A stretch of DNA of 64,000 nucleotides from an uncultured Lachnospiraceae bacterium (GTDB taxonomy: Bacteria; Bacillota; Clostridia; Lachnospirales; Lachnospiraceae), in the NCBI GenBank assembly GCA_946566685.1, contig CAMNXA010000005.1, forward strand, positions 62,001 through 126,000, in the 5' to 3' direction. A program made the position numbers and the translations under genes. The notes beneath the pieces are model-generated. The model ran no database searches and was not told where the DNA came from. It was given only the letters and a program-made list of their open reading frames with translations. Positions 31,392 through 53,830 of the stretch are shown in pieces. Within the stretch, counting starts at the first letter, position 1. Every line of letters begins with the position of its first letter.

Positions 31392-32786
31392 ATGGCATTT
31401 AGTTCAATTCCCTTTTTATGTGCTTTTTTTCCGGTGGTCATCATCTTATATTATCTGACACCTTCTGCTAAACTGAAGAACTGCTTTCTGATTATGGTAA
31501 GCCTGTTATTTTATGCTTATGGAGAAGGCATATATGTTTTGCTGATGCTGGCCTGTGTCTGTGTGAATTATCTGGCAGCCAGACTGATAGAATACAGTAA
31601 AAAAGGGAAAAAGATATTGCTTTTTTTAGCAATTGTATTGAATCTGGGCGTACTTGGCATGTATAAGTACGCCGGCATGATTATAGTGACAGTAAATCGG
31701 ATTGCCGGTTCGGAGATTTCCGTACCGGCGTTCCATCTGCCGATAGGAATTTCGTTTTTTATATTCCAGGCGCTCTCTTATGTGGTGGATGTATACCGGG
31801 ACAGGGTCAAAGCGGATAAAAGCCTGATCAGGATCTTGCTTTATATTTCCTTTTTTCCACAGCTGATTGCCGGACCGATCATCAAATATCATGATATTTC
31901 GGGACAGCTTGACAGAAGGAAAGTATCCTTACCGCAGAGTTGTCAGGGACTGAGGCGGTTTATCATCGGGCTGTCTAAGAAAGTATTGATAGCCAATACG
32001 ATGGGAGTGACGGCAGACTATGTATTTTCCCTGCCATATCATGAACTGGGGATGCTTCTGGCGTGGATTGGCGCAATCGCATATGTATTCCAGATTTATT
32101 TTGATTTCAGTGGTTATAGCGATATGGCCATAGGCATGGGCAAAATGTTCGGATTTCATTTTATGGAAAACTTCCGGTATCCTTATGCGGCCGGGAGTAT
32201 CCAGGATTTCTGGAGAAGGTGGCATATCTCCCTTACCAGCTGGTTTCGGGAATATCTCTATATTCCTCTGGGAGGGAACCGAAAGGGGAAGACAAGAACC
32301 TGGCTCAACAGGCTGGTGGTGTTTTTCTTTACGGGATTGTGGCATGGAGCCAGCTGGACTTTTGTGATTTGGGGATTGTTTCACGGCATGTTTCTGACGC
32401 TGGAGACCATTTTTCCGAAATTGACCAAAAGGATGGGCGTATTCCGCCATCTTTATGTGCTGGTGGTCGTCTGCACAGGTTTTGTTATTTTCCGGGCAGA
32501 CACGATAGGGCAGGCCTGGATGATGCTTGAGGTCATGTTCACGAAGACTGCATGGACGCCGGCGATAGAAGCAGCTGCTGCAAGCGTGTGCAATCTGCTG
32601 TTTCTGGTGACACTGCCAGTGGCGGCTGTCTGTTCCATGCCAGTATTGGAACGGATCAAAAAAACGCACCGGATGCAGCCGTTGCTGGAGGGAGTATCCT
32701 ATCTAATCTCGATTCCGCTTCTGGCGGCTTGTATGGTGAGTCTTGCTGGCGGAACATATAATCCGTTTATCTATTTCAGATTTTGA
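31392..32786 (+). CDS. MBOAT family O-acyltransferase (AlgI/PatA-like)
   Basis: Polytopic membrane protein of 464 aa that moves acetyl groups across the membrane for polysaccharide O-acetylation. The MBOAT hallmark histidines lie in FTGLWHGASWTFVIWGLFHG (about 313-332); FDFSGYSDMAIG near 238 and WRRWHISLTSWFREYLYIPLGG (only its start WRRWHIS quoted) near 275 are typical of the AlgI branch. ATG start 21 nt after the previous gene. It works with an exported SGNH/DHHW partner, which is the next gene. Confidence 0.93.
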   Translation: MAFSSIPFLCAFFPVVIILYYLTPSAKLKNCFLIMVSLLFYAYGEGIYVLLMLACVCVNYLAARLIEYSKKGKKILLFLAIVLNLGVLGMYKYAGMIIVTVNRIAGSEISVPAFHLPIGISFFIFQALSYVVDVYRDRVKADKSLIRILLYISFFPQLIAGPIIKYHDISGQLDRRKVSLPQSCQGLRRFIIGLSKKVLIANTMGVTADYVFSLPYHELGMLLAWIGAIAYVFQIYFDFSGYSDMAIGMGKMFGFHFMENFRYPYAAGSIQDFWRRWHISLTSWFREYLYIPLGGNRKGKTRTWLNRLVVFFFTGLWHGASWTFVIWGLFHGMFLTLETIFPKLTKRMGVFRHLYVLVVVCTGFVIFRADTIGQAWMMLEVMFTKTAWTPAIEAAAASVCNLLFLVTLPVAAVCSMPVLERIKKTHRMQPLLEGVSYLISIPLLAACMVSLAGGTYNPFIYFRF

Positions 32787-32845: not shown

Positions 32846-35392
32846 GTGAAAAGAAGGAACATAATAAAGGTTAAAAAGAAAATAAGTTTTAATCTCCCCA
32901 AAACAGGCCGAATTAAAAAACTGCATAATAAGCTTAACAAGATAATAAAAGGCAGCAAACATAAGGGGATTGCCAGGAATAAGAAGGATAAGAAATTATA
33001 TGTATGGTTGTTGATGGGGGTACTGTGCCTTGCGGGAATCGGCGCCGCATTTCTGGCTTTTCTTCGCTCTAAACAGAAAGAGGAGCCGGTTGAGGAGATT
33101 ACCGGCTTATCCTTGCCGGAGCGTGAGCCACAGGTTGACGAGAGTGGAACACAGGTTGAAGGACAGGAGAAAGAAGACCAGGGACTGGCAGGAGAAAATC
33201 AGGAGACAGACAGGGAAAAAGATCAAGAGTCGGTCAAGGGAAAAAATCAGGAGAGTAAGACGAAAAAATCAGCAGTGGCAGCGGGAAGCATCCTGTATCT
33301 TCTGCTGGTTCTGGGAATCTGTATTGTGCCGCTTCTGCTGTTTTGGCTCAGACCGGCGGAAAACACAGCGGAGAACCGTACAATGGCAGCACTGCCTGAG
33401 GTCTGGACAGCAGAAGGATTTAACTGGGATGTGCTGTCGGAAGCAGGCGATTATTTTACAGACCACTTTTTCCTTCGGCAGGAAATGGTGTCGATCAATG
33501 CGGGAATCCGGTCGGAGGTTTTTGGCATATCCCTGGTGGAAGATGTGATCGTGGGGGAGAACGGGTGGCTGTATTATGCGGCGACTCTGGATGATTATCA
33601 GCATAAGAACAGTATTTCAGAACGTGCGTTATTTAATATAGCGCATAACACGGCGTTGATGCAGGAATATTCTGAGGGTTTGGGGAAAACGTTTGTTTTT
33701 ACCATTGCTCCCAATAAAAATTCTCTTTATGGCGAGAATATGCCAAAGAGACTGCGGTATCAGGTGGCAGAGAAGAGCGATGCCCAGAGGCTTTTGCCGT
33801 GGCTTGTCAGGGAGAATGTTAACTATGTAGATCTGTTTGCCCTATTTGAGGAGCAGGAGGAGACCTTATATTATGCGAGGGATTCTCATTGGAATGAAAA
33901 GGGTGCGGTTTTGGTCTATCATACCCTTTTAGATGCCTGCGGAAAACAACATGAGACTTTCGAAGAGGCCGAACTCACACGAAGCGAGGATTATTGCGGG
34001 GATCTGGGAGCGATGTTGTTCCCGGTAGGCCAAAGTCCGGAAGTACGCCTGCAATATCCGGTGGAGGATACCTGGCATTATCTGGAGGGAGAAGAGGCGG
34101 AAGATCAGTTTATCCGCACGGCAAATGAGAAGGGAGAAGGAACTCTTCTGATGTATCGGGATTCCTTTGGCAATTCCCTGCTTCCCTATATGGCACAGAC
34201 ATTTTCCCAGACCGTTTTTTCCAGACAGGTGCCTTATGCCATGAGCGATCTTGTGACCTATGAGCCGGATATTCTGATCGTGGAAAAGGTAGAGAGGCAG
34301 CTTCCCACGCTGGGGAAAGTGCCGCCTGTGATGAGCGCTCCCATCCGGGAAACGGAAGAAGCATTTGTTACGGCCAATAGCACGGCGGCGACAGTGAACC
34401 TGTCCAAAGAGGGCGGTTACTGGAAACTGGAAGGGCTGGCGGATCCGGCCTGCATGGATACGGACAGCCGTATTTATGTGGAGGTGGACGATGGCGGCAG
34501 TGCAAAACTGTACGAGGCTTTTTGTGTCAGCAGTGCAGATACAAAGGACGGCAGTACGAATGATTATGGATATATTCTGTATGTTGCAGAAACACAAATC
34601 AGTGGAGATACCTTTCGAATCCGGGTGATAACGGAACAGGAAGGGGTAATGCAGGTTCTGCTGGAACGCAAATTGTACGTCTTACAGGATGGTTCGGTTG
34701 ATGGTTCAGTTAAGTCAGAGTGGGAGGCCGAAGAAGCAGGCAAGGAGAAAGCTGTTACAGAAAACAGTGAGGGAACCAATAAGGAAACTAATAAGGAAAA
34801 CGATAGGGAAACCGATAAGGAAATCAATAGGGAAACCGTGACAGAAAGTGCCGGCGAGAGGCCTGTGACAGAAGAGGGGGCAGAGGACGCAAGAGCAGGA
34901 AGTGCCTCGGAAGAAAGCCAGCCGGGAAATGATTTGGAGCATGGAACGGTGCCGGAAGAGCGGACCTTAGAGGCAGAAGAAACAACAGAAGAGAATGGAA
35001 AGACGGAAGGCAATAAGGTACCTGTGAAGGGTCAGATAAATGCAGAGAAACGACCGGAGAAGAGTCAGCCGGCGCCAGATAAACAAGCGGTAAATTCCCA
35101 GAATGCGGAAGAGGTGCAGCCAGAGGCGGGAACGCAAGTGACACAAGGTCAGACGAGTACAGAAACCCAGCCGGTGCAAAGCCAGACAACACCAGAAACG
35201 CAGGCGACAGAGACCCAAAAGGTGTCACAGCCTCAACAGGCGGCAGAAACCCAAGCTCAGCCGGCAGCCCAACAGCCGGCGCAACAGGCCGTAACCGAGG
35301 TGAACCGTATTTATATGGAAGACTGTGGATCCGACAGCGGATATTGGGTGATCACTTATTCGGATGGGCATGTGGAATATGTGGATGACTGA
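32846..35392 (+). CDS. DHHW/AlgJ-X-like exported O-acetylation partner with long low-complexity tail
   Basis: 848 aa. The N-terminus is strongly basic, with one transmembrane segment (about 52-70), an acidic linker and a second segment (about 149-168). The catalytic region carries RDSHWNEKG (near 346) and YRDSFGNSLLPY (near 438), the DHHW-family signature of SGNH-like acetyltransferases paired with MBOAT proteins. From about residue 640 the protein becomes a Glu/Thr/Gln-rich low-complexity tail with repeats such as TETQ and ETNKEND, ending in a short folded piece (YWVITYSDGHVEYVDD). GTG start. The two-membrane-segment N-terminus is unusual and could be a fusion. Confidence 0.8.
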   Translation: MKRRNIIKVKKKISFNLPKTGRIKKLHNKLNKIIKGSKHKGIARNKKDKKLYVWLLMGVLCLAGIGAAFLAFLRSKQKEEPVEEITGLSLPEREPQVDESGTQVEGQEKEDQGLAGENQETDREKDQESVKGKNQESKTKKSAVAAGSILYLLLVLGICIVPLLLFWLRPAENTAENRTMAALPEVWTAEGFNWDVLSEAGDYFTDHFFLRQEMVSINAGIRSEVFGISLVEDVIVGENGWLYYAATLDDYQHKNSISERALFNIAHNTALMQEYSEGLGKTFVFTIAPNKNSLYGENMPKRLRYQVAEKSDAQRLLPWLVRENVNYVDLFALFEEQEETLYYARDSHWNEKGAVLVYHTLLDACGKQHETFEEAELTRSEDYCGDLGAMLFPVGQSPEVRLQYPVEDTWHYLEGEEAEDQFIRTANEKGEGTLLMYRDSFGNSLLPYMAQTFSQTVFSRQVPYAMSDLVTYEPDILIVEKVERQLPTLGKVPPVMSAPIRETEEAFVTANSTAATVNLSKEGGYWKLEGLADPACMDTDSRIYVEVDDGGSAKLYEAFCVSSADTKDGSTNDYGYILYVAETQISGDTFRIRVITEQEGVMQVLLERKLYVLQDGSVDGSVKSEWEAEEAGKEKAVTENSEGTNKETNKENDRETDKEINRETVTESAGERPVTEEGAEDARAGSASEESQPGNDLEHGTVPEERTLEAEETTEENGKTEGNKVPVKGQINAEKRPEKSQPAPDKQAVNSQNAEEVQPEAGTQVTQGQTSTETQPVQSQTTPETQATETQKVSQPQQAAETQAQPAAQQPAQQAVTEVNRIYMEDCGSDSGYWVITYSDGHVEYVDD

Positions 35393-41136: not shown

Positions 41137-42123
41137 ATGAAATTGATAATACAAATACCCTGTTATAACGAGGCAGAAACCTTGGAAATAGCGTTGAATG
41201 ATCTGCCGAGGGAATTGACAGGAATAGATGAGATAGAGTACCTCATTATCAATGACGGAAGTCATGATGAAACCGTGGAAGTTGCCAGAAATTGGGGTGT
41301 GCATCATATTGTGTCTTTTAGCCAAAATAAAGGGCTGGCAAAAGGATTTATGGCGGGACTTGATGGATGCTTGAGAAATGGGGCAGATATTATTGTGAAC
41401 ACTGATGCGGATAATCAATACTGTGCGGATGATATACCAGTTCTGATACAACCAATCCTGGAAGGCAAAGCTGATATGGTGATTGGAGCAAGACCTATTG
41501 ATCAGACTAAGCATTTCTCATTCATCAAGAAAAAATTGCAGCATTTTGGAAGTTGGGTCGTGCGAAAGGCATCTAATACGGATATTCCGGATGCACCCAG
41601 CGGATTTAGGGCTTTTAGCAGAGAAGCCGCGATGCGGATTAATGTAGTGAATGATTATACTTACACACTGGAGACTATCGTACAGGCTGGCAGGGAAAAG
41701 ATAGCTGTGGCGAGTGTGCCGGTACGAACCAATGCAGAACTGCGTCCTTCAAGGCTTTTTAACAGCATAATGGGATATGTGAAAAAATCCATGCTGACCA
41801 TTCTAAGGGCTTATGTGATGTACAAACCTCTTAAATGTTTTGCCTATCTGGCATGCATTCCTATCATAGTAAGTCTGGGATATATAGTGAGATTTCTTTT
41901 ATATTATATGGCCGGAGCAGGAGGCGGACATGTACAGTCCCTGATTTTGGGATGTACGCTTTTGATTATGGGCTTTTTGACCATTATGATAGGAATTGTT
42001 GCCGATGTGATTTCTGCGAATCGGAAGATATTGGAGGATACTCAGTATCATGTGAGACGAACGGAATATGAAAGGATTTATCGAGAAAAGGCAGATAAGG
42101 AAACTGGTCAGGAGGGGGAATGA
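41137..42123 (+). CDS. Polyprenyl-phosphate glycosyltransferase, DPM1/GtrB-like (GT2)
   Basis: 328 aa. GT-A domain with IPCYNEAETLEIALNDLP (about 5-22), INDGSHDETVEVA and the NTDADNQY metal-binding block near 90, followed by two C-terminal transmembrane helices (about 233-283). This is the layout of enzymes making polyprenyl-phosphate-linked sugars, which would supply donors to the GT-C proteins of the same cluster. ATG start 18 nt after the previous gene; the next start follows its stop by one base. Confidence 0.88.
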   Translation: MKLIIQIPCYNEAETLEIALNDLPRELTGIDEIEYLIINDGSHDETVEVARNWGVHHIVSFSQNKGLAKGFMAGLDGCLRNGADIIVNTDADNQYCADDIPVLIQPILEGKADMVIGARPIDQTKHFSFIKKKLQHFGSWVVRKASNTDIPDAPSGFRAFSREAAMRINVVNDYTYTLETIVQAGREKIAVASVPVRTNAELRPSRLFNSIMGYVKKSMLTILRAYVMYKPLKCFAYLACIPIIVSLGYIVRFLLYYMAGAGGGHVQSLILGCTLLIMGFLTIMIGIVADVISANRKILEDTQYHVRRTEYERIYREKADKETGQEGE

Positions 42124-42124
42124 C

Positions 42125-43060
42125 ATGAGCGTCACGGTGTCAACTTATGCTGGGAAAATAGGGTGGTACGCAAGAAAATATCTGCCGGGAATGGCAAGTG
42201 ATTTTTATTTGAAATTGCAGTATCTGAAAAGAAGAAAGGTTTCTAAAAAATATATAGAGTATTTCTGTAAATGCAAAGAAACACCTCAACCACTAAATTT
42301 TTTGATAGAGACTGTCAATCGGTGCAACAGTACATGTGAGTTTTGTTCTGCAAATAGGAATGTTGAAAGCAGGCCGTTTTGCAGGATGGAATGGGAGTTA
42401 TTTGAAAAGATTATAAATCAGATTGCTGAATGGGATTATGCAGGTTACATATCTTTATTTGCAAATAACGAACCGTTTATGGATACAAGAATAATAGAAC
42501 TGCACAAATACATTAGGAAAAAGTTGCCAAGGGCAAAAATTAAGGTGTTTACAAACGGATTGCTTTTGACAGTGGAAAAATTTGTAGAGATTGCTCCCTT
42601 TGTAGATTTGTTTATCATCAATAATTATTGTGAAGATATGAAATTGCATAGGAACGTCAAAGAGTTATGTGATTATCTTAAAATGCACCCGAAGATTCAT
42701 GAAAATATAGATGTCCAGATTAAGGTCAGATATATCAAAGAGGTGTTAACTAACAGAGCTGGAACGGCGCCAAACAAGAAAGCAGCAGACAAGCCGATTA
42801 AGGAACCATGCTTATTTCCTTATACAGATATGGTGATTTTCCCTGATGGAGTTGTAGGAATATGTTGCTGCGATGTGACAGAGATAACAAATCTTGGTGA
42901 TTTGAATCAAGAAACGGTACAACAGGTTTGGGCGGGTAAGAAGGCTCAAAAGTTTCGGCAACAATTAAGAGACGGAAGAAATGGACATAAATTCTGTGCG
43001 CATTGTGATTTTGTGGATACAGGTTTGAGAGTAAATTTAATTAAAGGGAAGAGAAAGTGA
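42125..43060 (+). CDS. Radical SAM/SPASM protein of the glycan cluster
   Basis: 311 aa. The radical SAM cluster motif CNSTCEFC has cysteines at residues 67, 71 and 74. A SPASM-like auxiliary region near the C-terminus has CLFPY, GICCCD and CAHCDF cysteines, likely binding a further Fe-S cluster. Such enzymes modify peptides or sugars; in glycan loci they are suspected of sugar dehydrogenation, epimerisation or similar chemistry. ATG 42125, with AGGAGGGGG upstream, is preferred to an earlier in-frame ATG inside the GT2 gene. Confidence 0.85.
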   Translation: MSVTVSTYAGKIGWYARKYLPGMASDFYLKLQYLKRRKVSKKYIEYFCKCKETPQPLNFLIETVNRCNSTCEFCSANRNVESRPFCRMEWELFEKIINQIAEWDYAGYISLFANNEPFMDTRIIELHKYIRKKLPRAKIKVFTNGLLLTVEKFVEIAPFVDLFIINNYCEDMKLHRNVKELCDYLKMHPKIHENIDVQIKVRYIKEVLTNRAGTAPNKKAADKPIKEPCLFPYTDMVIFPDGVVGICCCDVTEITNLGDLNQETVQQVWAGKKAQKFRQQLRDGRNGHKFCAHCDFVDTGLRVNLIKGKRK

Positions 43061-43064
43061 AAAA

Positions 43065-44150
43065 ATGAAGAAAGCACGGATAGAAAAGAAGATAAAATTA
43101 CTGTGTATTTCCAGACGGTACTATCCCAGTCTTGGTGGAATGTCTAAATTTTGTTCATCAGTTTTCCCAAGAATCAATAAGGATGAGTTTGATGTGACAT
43201 TACTTGTACTTGGCAAATCGCAGAAGCATTTAATTTGGTTTTTGCCATATACGATTCTATATATGTTGTTAAATGCCAGAAAGTATGAGGCAATATTTGT
43301 CGGAGATTTGTTGATGTGTATTGATGGGTGGATATGCAGCAAAGTATCACCCAAAACAAAAAGAATAGTTGCTGTACATGGGTTGGATATAACTTATCCC
43401 AACAGATTTTATCAATGGTATATCAAAAAATTTTCAAAAGGAAGTTTTGATCAATATATAACGAACAGTGATGCAACGCAAAAGTTGTTGAATCATATTG
43501 GAATATATGATTGTATAACGGTTCCGTCCGGGGTTGATAAAGATAGGTATACCGGTGTAAAGACTGAACGCAAAGATTTTTTACAAAGATATGGTTTTAA
43601 ATCTGATAAGACCATTCTTTTGACGACAGGAAGGCTTGTAAAAAGAAAGGGAGTTAATTGGTTTATCAGAAACGTATTGGGAGAAATAAGATCGGAAATC
43701 GTCTATTTTATTGTGGGGAAGGGGCCGGAATTAGAGAAGATTATTGATTCTATAACAGAGTTGGGGTTGAATGACAGAGTCAGAGTGATTACAGAAGTTT
43801 CTGACGAGTTAATGAATGAGATGTATTGCAATGCGGATTTATTTATTATGCCAAACATTCATATAGAAAATGACATGGAAGGATTTGGCCTTGTTGCAAT
43901 TGAGGCGAGCCTCGCAGGAAATATAGTGATAGCGGCTGATGTTGATGGAATTTCAACTGCAGTACAGGATAAGCGAAATGGCTATTTGGTGCAGGGGGAG
44001 AATGCGCAGGAGTTTATAGATAAAATAGAGGAAATTCAGTCTGTGGAGAATTACAAGGAGATTGGACGGAAATTTTCAAAATTTACAGAAGAAAATTACG
44101 ATTGGAGTATTGTTGTAAAGCGATATGAGAATATTATAAAGGGATTGTAA
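43065..44150 (+). CDS. Glycosyltransferase family 4
   Basis: 361 aa, GT-B fold. N-terminal CISRRYYPSLGGMSKF (about 15-30) and the C-terminal donor-binding half with LLTTGRLVKRKGVNWF, VGKGPELEKI, and the E-x7-E-type motif region EGFGLVAIEASLAG (about 272-285). Retaining transferase of cell-surface glycan assembly; sugar unknown. ATG 4 nt after the radical SAM gene, so tightly coupled. Confidence 0.9.
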   Translation: MKKARIEKKIKLLCISRRYYPSLGGMSKFCSSVFPRINKDEFDVTLLVLGKSQKHLIWFLPYTILYMLLNARKYEAIFVGDLLMCIDGWICSKVSPKTKRIVAVHGLDITYPNRFYQWYIKKFSKGSFDQYITNSDATQKLLNHIGIYDCITVPSGVDKDRYTGVKTERKDFLQRYGFKSDKTILLTTGRLVKRKGVNWFIRNVLGEIRSEIVYFIVGKGPELEKIIDSITELGLNDRVRVITEVSDELMNEMYCNADLFIMPNIHIENDMEGFGLVAIEASLAGNIVIAADVDGISTAVQDKRNGYLVQGENAQEFIDKIEEIQSVENYKEIGRKFSKFTEENYDWSIVVKRYENIIKGL

Positions 44151-44170: not shown

Positions 44171-44882
44171 ATGAATCAAGTAAAATGGAAAAGCCGCGTT
44201 AAGGAAAATCCTATTATGAACGGAATTGCCGAATGTTATCTTCAGGTGCGGACGATTGTTCGTTATATAGTAAAGGGAAGTTATTCGCAATATTCAGAGG
44301 ATGTTTATGTAAAAGAAATATTTGCTGGGGGGGGGGGTAAATCCGTGGGAAATTAAGTACATAGATATAGGTGCTAACCATTACAAAAGAAACAGTAATA
44401 CATATCTGTTTTATAAGAATGGAGCATCTGGGATAGTTGTCGAGGCGGATCCCTGTTTATGTTCGGCTCTTCGAACAAAACGGAAAAGAGATATAGTGTG
44501 TAATAATTGTATCGGTTCAAAAAAGGGTGAATCGGTAGATTTTTATAGATTATCATTACCGACCAGAAATACCATGGATAAAGAGAGCGTAGACAGATCA
44601 ATAGAAGCAGGGGTAAAAGTAAGGGAAGTCATAAAGATATCGTGTGTAGGAATTAATGAGATATTGGAGCAATATGCCTTTTTGCCCGATTATATGTCAA
44701 TAGATATTGAGGGAATGGACTACAAGGTTCTCAGAACAATAGATTTTAATAGATTTCATATTAAGGTGATTGTAGCGGAAGCTTCCGATGAAGTTATTCA
44801 GGGCGAGAATATGGAACAGTATATGGAGAAGTGTGGATATCGCATTTATAAGAGAACAAAGGGGAATATAATATTTTGTTAA
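44171..44882 (+). pseudogene. FkbM-family methyltransferase interrupted at an 11-G tract (OFF or phase-variable)
   Basis: The first frame, from ATG 44171, runs EDVYVKEIFAGGGG and then stops at 44356. The matching C-terminal part is in another frame from about 44337: WEIKYIDIGANHYKRNSNTY, GIVVEADP and, near the end, DIEGMDYKVL, the SAM-binding and catalytic core of FkbM O-methyltransferases. The switch falls exactly within G11 at 44327-44337. Removing one G (G10) would join both into a 236-aa protein of normal family layout. It may methylate a sugar hydroxyl of the glycan. A sequencing error is the plain alternative. Confidence 0.85.
44327..44337 (+). repeat. Poly-G tract, 11 bases, inside the FkbM gene
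   Basis: Uninterrupted G11, bounded by GCT and TAA. Reading frame of the methyltransferase is restored at G10 (or G7, G13). Tracts of this length are prone to slipped-strand mispairing and are used as ON/OFF switches in phase-variable surface genes of other bacteria. Confidence 0.95.
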
Positions 44883-45856
44883 AAGATCATAAAACAGTGG
44901 CAATTCTTTTATCAACTTATAATGGAAGGGATTATATAGAAAAGCAACTTGAAAGTATTGCCAATCAGACATATGAAAATATTAAATTGTTTATCAGGGA
45001 TGATGGATCAAGTGATGGAACAGAGATATTAATTGAGAAATTTATTGCTCAAAATCATCTTGAAAGTAAAATGATTATGCTAAGGGATCATGATGGCAAT
45101 TTGGGATTTGGAAGGAGTTTTTATAAACTTGCAAATTTTGTCACAGGATTTGATTACTATTTTTTTTGTGATCAGGATGATTTTTGGTTTCCGGATAAAG
45201 TAGAAAGGGCGGTGCGGTTGCTGGAACGGGAATCAGATCACGAGATGATTTGTTATATGTCTAATTATTATATAGGTGATAACAGCTTACAAATAAATAG
45301 GAAAGCGTACAATCACAAGCTTGTTATAGAGAATGATACATTGGGTAGGCAATTATTTGAAACTACGTTAATTGTTGGCATGGCAACAGCGTTCAACGAA
45401 TCGTTTAGGAAGACTGCCTTTACACTGACAGATGACAGCTATGCTCTCTGTTCGCATGATAAGTGGATTGCTTTGGTTTTGGCAGGATTAAATGGAAAGC
45501 TGGTTTATGATGCAAGACCGGAAGCTATTCAACGAAGACACCAGTCAACAACTTCATCTTGTAACCAAATGTCTATTTATAAATTGAAATGGCGGATAAA
45601 CCATGTATTAAAAGGTGATTATTTGTGGCAGATCAGGCAAATGATCACATTGTATAAAAAACTTTATTGTAATCGGATTTATTCAAAATCGGAGAAAAAT
45701 TTTTTGAAGATATTTACGAAAAAAGGGATTGACGGGTATTGCGGAAGAATTTTTTATCCTCGCCGATTACGAGAAAAATTTACGGATGAGATATTGCTGA
45801 GGATTCTATTTGCAATGGGAAAGTATGACAGGTGTAGCAAAAAATCAGTTGGGTAG
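44876..45856 (+). CDS. Rhamnosyltransferase-like GT2
   Basis: 326 aa. GT-A domain with AILLSTYNGRDYIEKQL (about 9-25), IRDDGSSDGTEILIEK, and FFCDQDDFWFPDKVE (about 98-112), the WbbL/rhamnosyltransferase-type signature. The C-terminal half is helical and basic. TTG start at 44876 overlaps the end of the FkbM gene by 7 nt and has AAGGGG upstream, so translation is probably coupled to the broken gene. Role: adding a sugar, perhaps rhamnose, to the lipid-linked glycan. Confidence 0.87.
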   Translation: MLKDHKTVAILLSTYNGRDYIEKQLESIANQTYENIKLFIRDDGSSDGTEILIEKFIAQNHLESKMIMLRDHDGNLGFGRSFYKLANFVTGFDYYFFCDQDDFWFPDKVERAVRLLERESDHEMICYMSNYYIGDNSLQINRKAYNHKLVIENDTLGRQLFETTLIVGMATAFNESFRKTAFTLTDDSYALCSHDKWIALVLAGLNGKLVYDARPEAIQRRHQSTTSSCNQMSIYKLKWRINHVLKGDYLWQIRQMITLYKKLYCNRIYSKSEKNFLKIFTKKGIDGYCGRIFYPRRLREKFTDEILLRILFAMGKYDRCSKKSVG

Positions 45857-45867
45857 GAGAAAGTAAA

Positions 45868-46887
45868 ATGTTTAGGTTAAATCAGAATTCAAAGATTTAT
45901 ATTGTTGCGCCCGTAGATTATTTTAATGGTGGTGCAGAATTATTGCATCAGTTATGTGATGTTATGCGGAGAAATCATCTGGATGCTTACATGTGCTATT
46001 ATAGCAAGGTTACAAATGATTATGAGAAAATCAGTCTGCCAGAACACTTGAAAGTATACCATTTGAAGACCCTTCAGAAAATGGAAGATAATTTTCAAAA
46101 TCTTTTGATTGTACCGGAAAAATATACACAGCCGTTGCGCAAGTATAACAAAATTCAGAAATGTGTATGGTGGTTAGGAATTAATAATTACTTTTGGTAT
46201 TCAGAGATATACGGATGCTATTCCATGGCGGTATTTGCCTATCATTGGATGCGTTATCTTCTTGGAAAATGTACACCTATGTCTTTTGGAGAGATTAAAA
46301 GAATGAATATCCAGCATCTGTCACAATGCTGGTATGGTGTTGCCTTTTTGCAAAAGAAAGGTTTACATAATGTTGCATATCTATCGGATTATATTAACAT
46401 TATACATGAGGAATTTGAGAAAAACGATGTGAATAGAAAAGATATTATATTGTTTAATCCGAAAAGAAATACAAAATATATAAAGGCCATAAAGAGAAGA
46501 GATAGAAGTTTGCATTTTGTTCCAATACAGAATAAGACACCACAACAGGTTATAGAAATGATGAGAAGCGCAAAGATGTATGTTGATTTTGGATCGCATC
46601 CAGGAAAAGACAGGATGCCGAGAGAGGCAGTTTTGCATGGATGTGTTATTTTAACAAGTACGTTGGGAAGTGCAGATTTTTGGAATGATGTTCCGATTGA
46701 TTCAGAGTTCAAATTTGTCAGAAGTCCTCAAAATGTAGATAAGGTGATAAAGAAAATACATGATATATTAGAGAATTATTCTAGATATGTTTCAAGATTC
46801 GATAACTATAGGAAATACATATATGGTGAGAAAGATAAATTTGAACAGGCTGTTTTAGAAATTTTCAATTATGAGAGTAGAGTATGA
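45868..46887 (+). CDS. GT-B-like protein of the glycan cluster, family not recognised
   Basis: 339 aa, no signal peptide or transmembrane segment. The first residues KIYIVAPVDYFNGGAELLHQL resemble the N-terminal Rossmann half of GT-B transferases (key part YFNGGAELLH), and VDFGSHPGKDRMPREAVLHG near 236-255 resembles their acceptor/donor loop with the PREA motif. A glycosyltransferase is likely but remote; sugar unknown. It overlaps the next gene by 4 nt. Confidence 0.68.
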   Translation: MFRLNQNSKIYIVAPVDYFNGGAELLHQLCDVMRRNHLDAYMCYYSKVTNDYEKISLPEHLKVYHLKTLQKMEDNFQNLLIVPEKYTQPLRKYNKIQKCVWWLGINNYFWYSEIYGCYSMAVFAYHWMRYLLGKCTPMSFGEIKRMNIQHLSQCWYGVAFLQKKGLHNVAYLSDYINIIHEEFEKNDVNRKDIILFNPKRNTKYIKAIKRRDRSLHFVPIQNKTPQQVIEMMRSAKMYVDFGSHPGKDRMPREAVLHGCVILTSTLGSADFWNDVPIDSEFKFVRSPQNVDKVIKKIHDILENYSRYVSRFDNYRKYIYGEKDKFEQAVLEIFNYESRV

Positions 46888-48155
46888 GAACATATAAAAA
46901 TATCGTTATAGGCGGTGGGATAACAGGATTATCTTTTGCCAATTTTGCTAAGGATTGTATGGTTCTGGAGAAGGAGAGGGAAGTTGGAGGTTATTGCAGA
47001 ACAATATACAGAGCGCCCTATATTTGGGACTATGCCGGACACTTCTTTCACTTTAAAGAACGGGAGAGTAAGAGGTATTTTGAAAAGGTATTTGTTGATC
47101 AGGGACTTATCTCAAAAAGTAAAAATACCAAGATTTATTATAAAGGACAATTGATTGATTATCCTTTTCAGAGCAATATTCAGCAGTTGGAGAAAGAAGA
47201 ATTTATAGAATGCTTATGCGGTCTGTATCAGGCAGAGCAACATAGAGACAGAAATCAGAACGAGTATGGATCATTTGAAGAAATGTTATTCGAAAAATTT
47301 GGGAGAGGAATCTGTTCCAAGTTTTTGATTCCCTATAATGAAAAATTATATGCGTGTAATTTACAAAATTTAGATACAGATGCAATGGGACGTTTTTTCC
47401 CATATGTTAATTTTCATGATGTTATGAATCATATTTCGGGCGGATATATAACGTCTTATAATGATACATTTATATATCCACGATTGGGGGCGGCTGTTTT
47501 TATCAATTATCTGTCCGGGAAAATTCCGGAGGACAGAATCCGGACAGATTGCCAAGTGAGAAAAATAGATGTCAGAAAACACATTGTATATACGGATGAT
47601 ACAGAATATGAATATGAAAATCTTATCTGCACTATCCCACTGGATCATTTAGTGAATCTGCTCGGTAAGGAATATGATAAGGATGTCTTTTCTTATAATA
47701 AGGTATTGGTCTTAAATATGGGGTTTGATAAACCGTCAATCGATAGGACATTGGATTGGATTTATATCCCGGATAAAGATATAAATTTTTACAGAGTAGG
47801 ATTTTATAATAATATTCTGGGCATGGAAGAATTAAGCATCTATGTAGAGATTGGATATGGGCAAGATGAAGAGATAGATGTGGAACAAGCTAAAAGGGAT
47901 ACTTTAACGAATCTGCGAGCAATAGGAGTTATTACAGATCATATTCTAGTTGACTATCAACCTATCTTGATGTCACCGGCTTATGTACATATTTCTCCTA
48001 AGGCAAATGCATTGAAAGAAGAGATTTTTAAGGATTTAGAAGAAAATAATATATATTCGATTGGCAGATATGGCGGTTGGACGTATTGCTCTATGGAAGA
48101 TTGTTTCCTGGAGGCGCGTGCTTTGGCAAATAGATTAAATAGTAAGAGAATATAG
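46884..48155 (+). CDS. UDP-galactopyranose-mutase-like flavoprotein
   Basis: 423 aa. N-terminal FAD-binding dinucleotide fold with IGGGITGLSFANF (about 8-20), ending LEKEREVGGYCRT, then YIWDYAGHFFHFK, which resembles the FAD and substrate region of UDP-galactopyranose mutase and related amine-oxidase-like proteins. C-terminal IGRYGGWTYCSMEDCFLEA closes the FAD site. The enzyme may make a furanose form of a nucleotide sugar or oxidise a sugar; it is longer than classical Glf (about 370-390 aa), so the exact reaction is uncertain. Confidence 0.72.
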   Translation: MRTYKNIVIGGGITGLSFANFAKDCMVLEKEREVGGYCRTIYRAPYIWDYAGHFFHFKERESKRYFEKVFVDQGLISKSKNTKIYYKGQLIDYPFQSNIQQLEKEEFIECLCGLYQAEQHRDRNQNEYGSFEEMLFEKFGRGICSKFLIPYNEKLYACNLQNLDTDAMGRFFPYVNFHDVMNHISGGYITSYNDTFIYPRLGAAVFINYLSGKIPEDRIRTDCQVRKIDVRKHIVYTDDTEYEYENLICTIPLDHLVNLLGKEYDKDVFSYNKVLVLNMGFDKPSIDRTLDWIYIPDKDINFYRVGFYNNILGMEELSIYVEIGYGQDEEIDVEQAKRDTLTNLRAIGVITDHILVDYQPILMSPAYVHISPKANALKEEIFKDLEENNIYSIGRYGGWTYCSMEDCFLEARALANRLNSKRI

Positions 48156-48166
48156 TAACATAAATT

Positions 48167-49591
48167 ATGAAAAATACATTGGTAAAGAACTCGGTATTCA
48201 ATATATTATATAATCTGTTAAATGCAGTATTTCCGCTGATTTCAGTGATTTATGCTTCGCACGTTTTACTGGATACTGGTGTGGGAAAGGTAGATTCTGC
48301 CCAAAATATGGCACAATATTTTGTAATCTTGGCACCATTGGGAATTACCAATTACGGGATTCGCGAAATTGCAAGAGCAAGAAATGATAAGGAGCAAAAA
48401 GATAAGATTTTTTCGGAACTGTTTTTGTTAAACGCCATTTCAACCCTATGTTTTGGCGGTATCTATTATATTTTGATTTTTACCATCCATGGGTTTGAAA
48501 GGGAACAAAGACTTTATGTTATTACAGGATTAATGGTACTCTGTAATTTTGTGAATGTTGATTGGTATTATAAGGGCATGGAGCAGTTTCGGTATATAGC
48601 GACAAGAAATGTTGCCGTGAAATGTATCGCGTTGAGCCTTTTGCTGGGAGGAGTAAAGAGAGAAGGAGATTATGAGATATATGCGTTGATCAGTATCTTG
48701 GCAACAACGGGAAATTATTTTGTTAATGTACTGAATCTGAAAAAATATGGCGCGGTTTTGAAACTCAGGAACATTGCTTTGACAAAACATTTGAGGTCAA
48801 TGCTTGTTTTTTCGGCGACAACTTTTGCGATAGAGTTATATGCTTTGCTTGATGTGACAATGATTTCTATTTTCTGTAAGCCAGAAAATGTGGCGTATTA
48901 TAATAACGCCATGAAACTGGTAAGATCTATGATAGTCATTATAGCGGCTAGCGGCGGGGCGCTGCTCCCAAGATTGAGTTTGTATTACGAAAAGGGTGAA
49001 TATGAGAAGTGCAGTGAGGTTGCAAATAGAGTATTTGAGGTTATGTATGTCATGTTCATACCCTGTGGCATTGGATTGTTTCTGGTTTCAGAAGACTTGG
49101 TAAGGCTGCTGTTTGGAGACAGTTTTATTCCCTGTATTGTTACTATGAAGATAGCTTCACTATTGATTTATACATTGGGCTTTAGCAATTTGTTTGGAAC
49201 CCAGATACTTTTGACGTTTGGGGGTGAATTGAAAACCTTGTTATGCACGATTATGGGTGCGGTTTCCAATATATGCATGAACTTAGTACTTATACCGAGA
49301 TATCAGCAGAATGGTGCGGCGGTGGCCTCGGTTGTAAGTGAAGGATTAGTGACATTAATGACAATTGTTTTTTCATATCAATATATACACTTTGCACCAA
49401 ACAAAAAAATATTATATATAGCTACAGCAGCAGCTGTGCTAATGGTAATAGCCATTATATGTTTGAATCTTTATGTTGCGGCTGGTATCAAAAGATTATT
49501 CTTAGATATTTTGGTTGGAGGATTAGTGTATATCGGAGTTAATATTGTGTTTAGAAATCCACTGATTAAAAAAAAGTCCTTACAGGTATAA
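48167..49591 (+). CDS. Wzx-type flippase
   Basis: 474 aa with twelve to fourteen hydrophobic segments. The start KNSVFNILYNLLNAVFPLIS and the NYGIREIARARNDK segment (about 63-76) are typical of MOP-superfamily O-antigen/capsule flippases. It should export the lipid-linked repeat unit built by the cluster's cytoplasmic transferases. It is distinct from the SpoVB-like flippase at 35430, which lies outside the island. Confidence 0.92.
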   Translation: MKNTLVKNSVFNILYNLLNAVFPLISVIYASHVLLDTGVGKVDSAQNMAQYFVILAPLGITNYGIREIARARNDKEQKDKIFSELFLLNAISTLCFGGIYYILIFTIHGFEREQRLYVITGLMVLCNFVNVDWYYKGMEQFRYIATRNVAVKCIALSLLLGGVKREGDYEIYALISILATTGNYFVNVLNLKKYGAVLKLRNIALTKHLRSMLVFSATTFAIELYALLDVTMISIFCKPENVAYYNNAMKLVRSMIVIIAASGGALLPRLSLYYEKGEYEKCSEVANRVFEVMYVMFIPCGIGLFLVSEDLVRLLFGDSFIPCIVTMKIASLLIYTLGFSNLFGTQILLTFGGELKTLLCTIMGAVSNICMNLVLIPRYQQNGAAVASVVSEGLVTLMTIVFSYQYIHFAPNKKILYIATAAAVLMVIAIICLNLYVAAGIKRLFLDILVGGLVYIGVNIVFRNPLIKKKSLQV

Positions 49592-51528: not shown

Positions 51529-52527
51529 ATGATTATTACACAAACTCCCTTCAGAATGTCTTTTTTTGGAGGCGGGACGGATTTTGAAGAATTTTATCTG
51601 GAGCATGGCGGGGCAGTTATTTCCACGACCTTTGATAAATATTGTTATGTCAATGTAAGACATCTGCCGCCTTTTTTTGATTATCATACAGAGTTGGCAT
51701 ATAGCAGAATAGAACGGGTTGAGGATATAGATGAAATATGTCATCCAGCAGTCAGGGAGGCAATGAAGTACTTGCATATGAAGGATCTTCGCATTACATA
51801 CGAAGCGGATTTACCCGCGCGGTCCGGTCTTGGGACAAGCAGTTCTTTTGCGGTGGGAATGCTGAATGCATTTTATGCTCTGAATGGTAGATATGCTGAC
51901 AAGAGAAGGCTGGCCGATGATGCTATCTATCTTGAACGTAAATTATGTAAGGAAAAAGGAGGAATACAGGATCAGATTGCGGCAGCGTTTGGTGGTTTTA
52001 ATCGTATTGATTTTGGTAGAGAGGGGTACAGTGTGAATCCGGTTATTATTTCTCCAGACAGGAAAGAGCAGCTAAATAGGAATCTGATTTTGTTTTTTAC
52101 GGGATTTTCGAGGTTTTCATCAGATATACAGATGGATGCGGACAAAGATAGAAAGCAGAAAAAACAGCAACTTTTAGAACTATATAGTTTGGTTGATGAG
52201 GCAGAAGGGATTTTGACATCGAAGTGTAATTTAAATGATTTTGGGCGCTTATTGGATTATACGTGGGAATTAAAAAGAGGAATTTCAAATAAGGTATCAA
52301 CGTTTGCCATAGATGTTGCATATGAGACAGCTGTAAAGGCTGGAGCATTAGGAGGAAAACTTTTGGGTGCCGGTGGGGGTGGATTTTTGATTTTTTATGT
52401 GGAAGAAGATAAAAGGGGCTCCGTTTTGTCTGCTATGAAAGATTTGTTGTTTGTTCCATTTGCTTTTGAAAATAGTGGTTCACGAGTAATTCATTACACA
52501 CCGGAAGTGGAAAATTTTAAAAACTAA
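51529..52527 (+). CDS. hddA: D-glycero-alpha-D-manno-heptose 7-phosphate kinase
   Basis: GHMP-family sugar kinase of 332 aa making heptose 1,7-bisphosphate. The start TQTPFRMSFFGGGTDFEEFY (about 4-23), ATP-binding loop PARSGLGTSSSFAVG (about 96-110) and C-terminal LGGKLLGAGGGGFLIFY match HddA. It is first of a contiguous hddA-hddC/gmhB-gmhA set, which makes the substrate assignment much stronger than the kinase family alone. ATG behind ATGAGGAGAAAAG. Confidence 0.9.
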   Translation: MIITQTPFRMSFFGGGTDFEEFYLEHGGAVISTTFDKYCYVNVRHLPPFFDYHTELAYSRIERVEDIDEICHPAVREAMKYLHMKDLRITYEADLPARSGLGTSSSFAVGMLNAFYALNGRYADKRRLADDAIYLERKLCKEKGGIQDQIAAAFGGFNRIDFGREGYSVNPVIISPDRKEQLNRNLILFFTGFSRFSSDIQMDADKDRKQKKQQLLELYSLVDEAEGILTSKCNLNDFGRLLDYTWELKRGISNKVSTFAIDVAYETAVKAGALGGKLLGAGGGGFLIFYVEEDKRGSVLSAMKDLLFVPFAFENSGSRVIHYTPEVENFKN

Positions 52528-52546
52528 TAATGATTTAGGGGGAAAC

Positions 52547-53830
52547 ATGAAAGTAGTGATTATGGCGGGCGGTATGGGAACACGTGTGATGTCACTTAAT
52601 ACCCAAGTTCCGAAGCCTATGATAGAGATATGCGGCAAACCTGTACTCTTATATCAAATTGAGTGCTTAAAGAAGCAGGGATATACAGATATTATAGTGG
52701 TGATAGGACATCTTGGGCACATGATAGAGGAGTTTTTAGGTGATGGTTCAAAATGGGGTGTCAATATTACATACATAAAAGAAGAAAGGCCTTTAGGAAC
52801 TGCTGGTGCATTGTATTATTTGAAAGAGGATATAGAGGATGATTTTTTGCTGCTCAATGGAGATATCATATTTGATGTTGACATAGAAAGGTTCCGAAAT
52901 GTACACAAACAAAACAGTACATTGGCAACAATTCTAACGCATCCAAATAATCATCCTTATGATAGTGGGATTATAGTCACCGGCGATGATAACAGAGTCA
53001 TTAGATGGCTTACAAAGGAAGAAAAAAGAGGCTGGCATAAAAATCGTGTGAATGCAGGTATGCATATGATTTCACCGGAACTGTTAAAAGTGTTTGCGTG
53101 TCCGGAGGAAAAGGATTTGGACAGGGACATATTGAAACCATTGATCGTTGAGGGAAAACTGCATGTATATGATTCACCGGAATACATAAAAGATATGGGT
53201 ACGCCTGAGCGGTATTATGAAGTTGTTAAGGATGTGGAAGCAGGACTTCCAGCAAGAAGGAATCTCAGGAATAAACAGAGGGCAATATTTTTAGATCGAG
53301 ATGGGACGATTAATAAATATGTTGGATTTATAAGAAATATCGATGATTTCGTACTGGTTGAGGGTGTATCCGATGCAATTAAGCGAATTAATCGGTCAGG
53401 GTATTTGTGCATTGTCATCACAAATCAACCGGTTATCGCGAGAGGAGAACTTACAATCGATGAATTAGAAGAGATTCATAATAAGATGGAGACACTTCTC
53501 GGTTGCAACGGAGTTTATGTGGATGATATTTTCTATTGCCCACATCATCCTGATAGGGGATTTGAGGGAGAACGTATCGAGTACAAAATCGATTGTGCAT
53601 GTAGAAAACCCAAACCTGGGATGATACTACAGGCGGCAGAAAAATATAATATTGATCTGGCAAATTCCTGGATGATTGGCGATAGTGAGAATGATGTGCT
53701 AGCGGGGATAAATGCTGGATGCAAAGTTGCGCTTATTGGAGAAGGGCAGGTAATGGGGGCTGTATCTTATTCTGATTTGCTGACATGTGTGAATGCAGGA
53801 TTGTGGGAGGAAGATAAGTGGCTTCGGTAG
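52547..53830 (+). CDS. Fused heptose 1-phosphate guanylyltransferase and 1,7-bisphosphate phosphatase
   Basis: 427-aa two-domain protein. Residues 1-240 are a nucleotidyltransferase (MAGGMGTRVM at 5-14; PKPMIEI; LNGDIIFD), matching HddC. Residues 245-420 are a HAD phosphatase of the GmhB type, with FLDRDGTINK near 248 and a zinc-site-like CPHH (near 331) and CAC (near 350) pattern. The fusion joins the last two steps of GDP-heptose synthesis. Overlaps gmhA by 13 nt. Confidence 0.88.
   Translation: MKVVIMAGGMGTRVMSLNTQVPKPMIEICGKPVLLYQIECLKKQGYTDIIVVIGHLGHMIEEFLGDGSKWGVNITYIKEERPLGTAGALYYLKEDIEDDFLLLNGDIIFDVDIERFRNVHKQNSTLATILTHPNNHPYDSGIIVTGDDNRVIRWLTKEEKRGWHKNRVNAGMHMISPELLKVFACPEEKDLDRDILKPLIVEGKLHVYDSPEYIKDMGTPERYYEVVKDVEAGLPARRNLRNKQRAIFLDRDGTINKYVGFIRNIDDFVLVEGVSDAIKRINRSGYLCIVITNQPVIARGELTIDELEEIHNKMETLLGCNGVYVDDIFYCPHHPDRGFEGERIEYKIDCACRKPKPGMILQAAEKYNIDLANSWMIGDSENDVLAGINAGCKVALIGEGQVMGAVSYSDLLTCVNAGLWEEDKWLR

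Follow-up and report, generated by a model that had tools for sequence, protein, structure and literature searches.

Within the window, the 64 kb stretch of DNA that was analysed here, a gene for an FkbM-domain methyltransferase sits in a same-strand run of genes of the surface-polysaccharide type. On the forward strand, the FkbM gene is preceded by a GT2 glycosyltransferase (41137..42123; PF00535, E = 3.1e-22), a radical SAM/SPASM protein (42068..43060; PF13186 and PF04055) and, as its 5' neighbour, a GT4 glycosyltransferase (43065..44150; PF00534, E = 4.1e-31). It is followed on the same strand by a second GT2 glycosyltransferase (44876..45856; PF00535, E = 9.3e-21), whose TTG start overlaps the end of the FkbM gene, a flavin amine-oxidase-type oxidoreductase (46884..48155; PF01593, E = 1.4e-11) and a polysaccharide flippase-type membrane protein (48167..49591; PF01943, E = 1.1e-25). 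In the region 51529-53830, a GHMP kinase gene (starting at 51529) adjoins a gene for a nucleotidyltransferase fused to a HAD domain (starting at 52547), a pair which we take to resemble nucleotide-heptose synthesis. An MBOAT gene (starting at 31392) and an adjoining AlgX-like gene (starting at 32846) lie farther upstream in the window.

The first-pass annotation had described the methyltransferase gene as split at a run of 11 Gs with its family core preserved, and re-reading of the sequence bore this out. The G11 tract, the proposed slippage switch, occupies exactly positions 44327-44337 on the coding strand inside the FkbM-type gene; no other G or C run in the window reaches 7 bases. The gene is open on both sides of it in two different frames, as a 52-codon start and a 180-codon methyltransferase piece. 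The 5' piece (44171..44326, forward strand) begins with ATG 44171, preceded by GAACGAGG, a plausible ribosome-binding site; its frame reaches the tract after 52 codons, with G11 at codon 53, and ends at a stop at 44354-44356. The product from this ATG in the assembled state is a 61-residue stub. In contrast, the frame leaving G11 stays open for 540 bases, to a stop at 44880-44882, and the 3' piece (44340..44882, forward strand) on its own matches the full PF05050 profile (positions 1-173 of 173; E = 8.7e-18; 65.5 bits against a cut-off of 22.7). A match of the 3' piece to NCBIfam TIGR01444 falls just under the cut-off (35.7 against 37.7 bits), and the gene is therefore filed under PF05050 only. 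The full-length domain is shared with other FkbM-domain methyltransferases, whereas here the frame is broken, at a tract that precedes the entire domain and thus lies in the 5' part of the gene.

The N-terminal piece gave no match in a Pfam search. A single-locus search aligned 48 of its residues with the start of an intact homologue at 31% identity (E = 9e-7), which indicates that both pieces belong to one gene. No sequence relatives of the FkbM protein were found in the PDB at E <= 0.01. From its domain and its neighbourhood, the protein is a putative SAM-dependent sugar methyltransferase; a DNA-methyltransferase phasevarion was ruled out, as the domain is FkbM. Because the frame break truncates the protein ahead of the methyltransferase domain, the assembly would represent the OFF state of a glycan methyltransferase. 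It had also been noted that the downstream GT2 frame can begin inside the end of the FkbM gene, and this was found to be correct (TTG 44876; FkbM stop 44880-44882). The OFF-state stop precedes the GT2 start by 520 bases; given this distance and the overlap of the two genes, a loss of coupling or a polar effect on the glycosyltransferase is plausible.

Random runs of a single base drop off with increasing length. In the window, G or C runs numbered 46 of length 5, three of length 6, none of lengths 7-10, and one of length 11. In a dinucleotide shuffle of the window, four G8 words were seen against 3.86 expected, a number reached by 46 of 100 shuffles; this comparison says little, since all four words come from the single G11 run. 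The source genome (3.9 Mb) contains 27 runs of at least nine Gs, with an abnormal peak at exactly 10. Exact lengths of 8, 9, 10 and 11 were represented by 6, 4, 16 and 4 runs, respectively, and there was one run each of G12, G14 and G21. Runs of at least 10 were seen 23 times, as compared with 1.3 expected from the run statistics of the window, and with 7.3 expected under a generous ratio of 0.3. Although the G8-word shuffle of the window was not significant, the genome-wide length distribution rules out a chance run.

We inspected 26 of the 27 tracts of at least nine Gs in the source genome, that is, all except C24:42-50. In seven cases the tract splits a gene, with the coding sequence open on either side but in different frames; 11 tracts are contained in a gene without breaking its frame, and eight are intergenic or at gene ends. 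Besides the window FkbM gene with its G11, the split genes are a second FkbM gene (C1:3493), two MBOAT genes (C1:2576 and C87:7568), a radical SAM gene (C1:11151), a gene for a solute-binding-type lipoprotein (C12:39983) and a gene without assigned function (C89:8623). In-frame tracts were found in two FkbM genes (C1:14222 and C1:150239), two solute-binding lipoproteins (C2:27430 and C7:98319), a protein with a GDSL-type match below its cut-off (C1:234918), four proteins on C9 (one Calx-beta, one with sortase and Big_2, and two without a Pfam match), a protein placed by reading frame only (C47:10790), and a truA-like ORF, so named by eye, on C46. Four of the seven PF05050 matches in the source genome carry G10-G12, an enrichment with a hypergeometric probability of 3e-8 to 7e-8 on the assumption that 22 of 3000-3700 genes carry tracts.

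Two of these tracts deserve a separate description. The lipoprotein split at C12:39983 (L054:2856-4582) had no Pfam match of its own; its relative in another species, recognised by eye (L101:1388-3010, genome G022), matches PF01547. In this pair the tract sits in a linker, as a G9 with the gene split in L054 and as a G10 with the gene in frame in L101. The tract on C46 (L057:3456-3476) is an odd run of 21 Gs, followed by a C and then six Gs, and the truA-like ORF stays open through it; this run may be a sequencing or assembly artefact.

In 60 genomes of the genus, PF05050 gave 127 matches, from 45 genomes, all of which were read. A tract of at least nine Gs lies in or at the gene in 26 of the 127, spread over 13 genomes; tract lengths were 9 (17 cases), 10 (6 cases), 11 (1 case) and 12 (2 cases), and the position of the tract within the gene varies. 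Sixteen of these 26 tracts leave the gene in frame, eight split it, and two are ambiguous. The density of such tracts was 26 per 131.7 kb of FkbM gene against 13 per 287.4 kb in the same-strand rest of the loci (Fisher 6.5e-6); the ratio is approximate, as some loci overlap, the test treats bases as independent, and the flank control omits the flanks of the window and of L041 (three of the 26 tracts). A contig scan together with a search of all 77 genus genomes returned a single close homologue of the split gene, from another species (L040 in genome G008; public record CANPUE010000003.1), and no second strain of the source species. The source 3' piece is 52% identical to L040. Homologues of the upstream GT2, radical SAM and GT4 genes (81, 71 and 64% identity, respectively) lie beside the FkbM homologue in changed order, forming a partly syntenic cassette. 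The homologue has an in-frame G9 of its own, which aligns about 18 residues before the source tract, that is, at a shifted codon and as G9 against G11.

These counts bear on two ways in which the split could be misread. An assembly or sequencing miscount, with the gene truly in frame and always on, is unlikely. The length of long G runs is difficult to determine by sequencing, and the G21 in the truA-like ORF shows that the assembly may contain odd G runs; however, 7 of the 26 inspected tracts of the source genome are split and 11 of the 26 are in frame, and the eight split FkbM tracts of the genus come from independently assembled genomes. Moreover, a miscount leaves the presence of the tracts unexplained, and even if it had occurred, the locus would stay a candidate switch, caught in the ON state. 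A fixed frameshift, by which the gene would have become a recent pseudogene with no switching, is very unlikely. The frame is indeed broken in the sole genome of the source species examined, but the 3' piece has remained open over its whole length with a full domain, FkbM genes throughout the genus are enriched in the kind of tract at which the break falls, and in-frame states are the commoner ones among the FkbM tracts of the genus (16 of 26).

Tracts of the same kind were found in MBOAT O-acyltransferase genes, for which the sample consisted of six regions selected because an open frame was short or a tract lay close by. Split genes were L041:1312-2816 (source genome, C1; G11), L059:2851-4345 (source genome, C87; G10), L249:707-2192 (G017; G9), L245 (G037; G10) and L248 (G038; G10). 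In L041, L059 and L249 the tract lies at the same place despite its differing length (G11, G10 and G9), and each gene is split there; the 3' pieces are 47-49% identical, and the split pieces align consecutively along intact MBOAT proteins. The pair from G037 and G038 likewise has its tracts at matching positions. Two acyltransferase-3 (PF01757) genes were also observed with a G10: one is split at the tract (L108, G054), and the ORF of the other stops there (L110, G017).

The MBOAT genes are informative for a further explanation, namely that recoding or re-initiation, through a programmed frameshift, transcript slippage or a start at a TTG at 44322, gives a working FkbM enzyme now. The TTG (44322..44324, forward strand) lies 5 bases 5' of the tract and shares the frame of the complete domain (ORF 44322-44882); it is thus a possible re-initiation site, from which a short product may be made. 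Against re-initiation, no clear ribosome-binding site was seen by eye before this TTG. Against recoding, the homologous MBOAT site carries G9, G10 and G11, so that its length is not conserved, and FkbM genes occur both in frame and split, whereas a programmed frameshift needs one fixed relation between the two frames. These mixed states, together with the in-frame state of the closest homologue, rule out a programmed frameshift gene, and the explanation as a whole is most unlikely.

In our view, the split FkbM gene is very probably a translational contingency locus that undergoes slipped-strand phase variation at its poly-G tract, a reading built on the comparison of sequences. The first-pass annotation had put the gene forward as a candidate phase-variable switch, and the proposal is supported by the G10 peak, the 27 tracts of the source genome, the tracts in 4/7 and 26/127 FkbM genes, and the separate in-frame G9 of the homologue. 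G11 in the 5' part of the gene would be a hot spot for slipped-strand mispairing during replication, and slippage would then occur in the living population. In the assembled state, the frame would break just before the SAM-binding region and only the 61-residue stub would be made, presumably leaving the glycan without methylation by the FkbM enzyme (OFF). Were the tract length to change in the appropriate register, the start and the methyltransferase piece would be read through as one frame (ON). In this way, switching would alter how a surface polysaccharide is decorated with methyl groups, and through polarity it may also affect how strongly the GT2 gene downstream is expressed. The FkbM switch would be part of a whole repertoire of such poly-G switches in the genome and the genus, many of them probably in glycan-modifying enzymes (FkbM, MBOAT, acyltransferase-3 and radical SAM), surface lipoproteins and adhesin-like proteins. 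A repertoire of this kind may be of benefit against phage or host immunity.

The mismatch-repair gene mutS is intact: TIGR01070 scored above its cut-off in 28/28 genomes tested, the source genome included. A mutator background through loss of mutS, the one gene considered in this respect, is thus ruled out. The persistence of the tracts without such a loss fits selection for them. Campylobacter is not known to possess mismatch repair, in contrast to the intact MutS found here.

Poly-G switches are well described in other bacteria. The poly-G tracts of Campylobacter are most often 9 (53%) or 10 (26%) Gs long, and the genes that carry them include ones for SAM-dependent methyltransferases and for a radical SAM enzyme (PMC6321876). 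The Campylobacter phasome (PMC6321876) has in common with our system that poly-G tracts lie on the coding strand in surface or glycan genes, with many loci per genome; in contrast, here we are dealing with a genus of Lachnospiraceae, the peak in the source genome is at G10, genes for MBOAT proteins, FkbM proteins and solute-binding lipoproteins are prominent, and switching is a prediction from assemblies. Among the literature matches listed, the G tract of the Bifidobacterium breve pilus switch is the nearest precedent from a Gram-positive gut commensal (PMC9187656). Both systems have an intragenic G tract that turns a surface-structure gene into two ORFs. However, the B. breve account (PMC9187656) concerns sortase-dependent pili of an actinobacterium and shows replication slippage by deep sequencing, whereas here the genes are glycan and lipoprotein genes, the phylum is another one, and the evidence is drawn from assemblies. 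Helicobacter canadensis, as described in PMC2823697, likewise has homopolymer-associated genes with 5' tracts (on/off) and 3' tracts, with methyltransferases in a glycosylation region; there, C-terminal switching is described and variation was seen in reads, as opposed to the assemblies used here. Clostridia are among the groups surveyed in PMC2831843. Among the matches listed from a search of the open-licence literature (titles and abstract openings, most subscription journals being outside its scope), there was no report of poly-G phase variation in Lachnospiraceae. Poly-G phase variation is a known kind of switch, and its Lachnospiraceae setting is not met in the open-licence literature listed. 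If our reading is true, gut commensals of this genus share with Campylobacter and Neisseria a random variation of surface sugars, which would be relevant to phage resistance, to recognition by antibodies and to the heterogeneity of strains in the gut. For annotation it would mean that apparent pseudogenes split at G runs in this genus may be OFF states.

The trait belongs to much of the genus and not to a single gene, and is strong in part of the genus. Exact G10 runs are present in 50 of 60 genus genomes, with 290 in total and up to 24 per genome; of 20 genomes from the family's other genera, 3 have such runs, 5 in total. Counting against a simple picture, exact G10 runs outnumber exact G8 runs in 28 of the 60 genus genomes, are fewer in 22 and equal in 10; exact G8 runs in the genus number 359, of which 141 come from four genomes. 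A Pfam search at exact-G10 loci of the genus covered 10 proteins from 9 of 30 loci. With less confidence than for the single locus, we consider it rather probable that a genus-wide phasome acts as a combinatorial generator of surface states, in which poly-G switches lie in methyl- and acyltransferases for glycans, in lipoproteins that bind substrates and in large surface proteins (and possibly in the C-terminus of a response regulator, a leader peptide and a flagellin). Such a phasome would largely have evolved within the genus and been kept despite intact MutS, with tracts regained at new codons of the same families.

Several observations stand beside these results. In G076, a genome from another family (f18) of the order, exact G10 runs number 29, which sets it apart from most other non-genus genomes searched. 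In the source genome, a response-regulator gene (L056:2698-3426, C34) has a G11 at its last codons, and a relative in another genome (L094, G028) has a G10 at the same place, where the frame reads on, partly into masked bases; C-terminal switching is possible for this tract. A further G11 lies near the end of a small ORF of the source genome (L046:3020-3355, C6), with a stretch that, by eye, is leader-peptide-like and ends in Gly-Gly. Finally, in G015 a G10 (L095:1502-1511) is located immediately 5' of the start of an ORF that is flagellin-like by eye, where it might tune expression.
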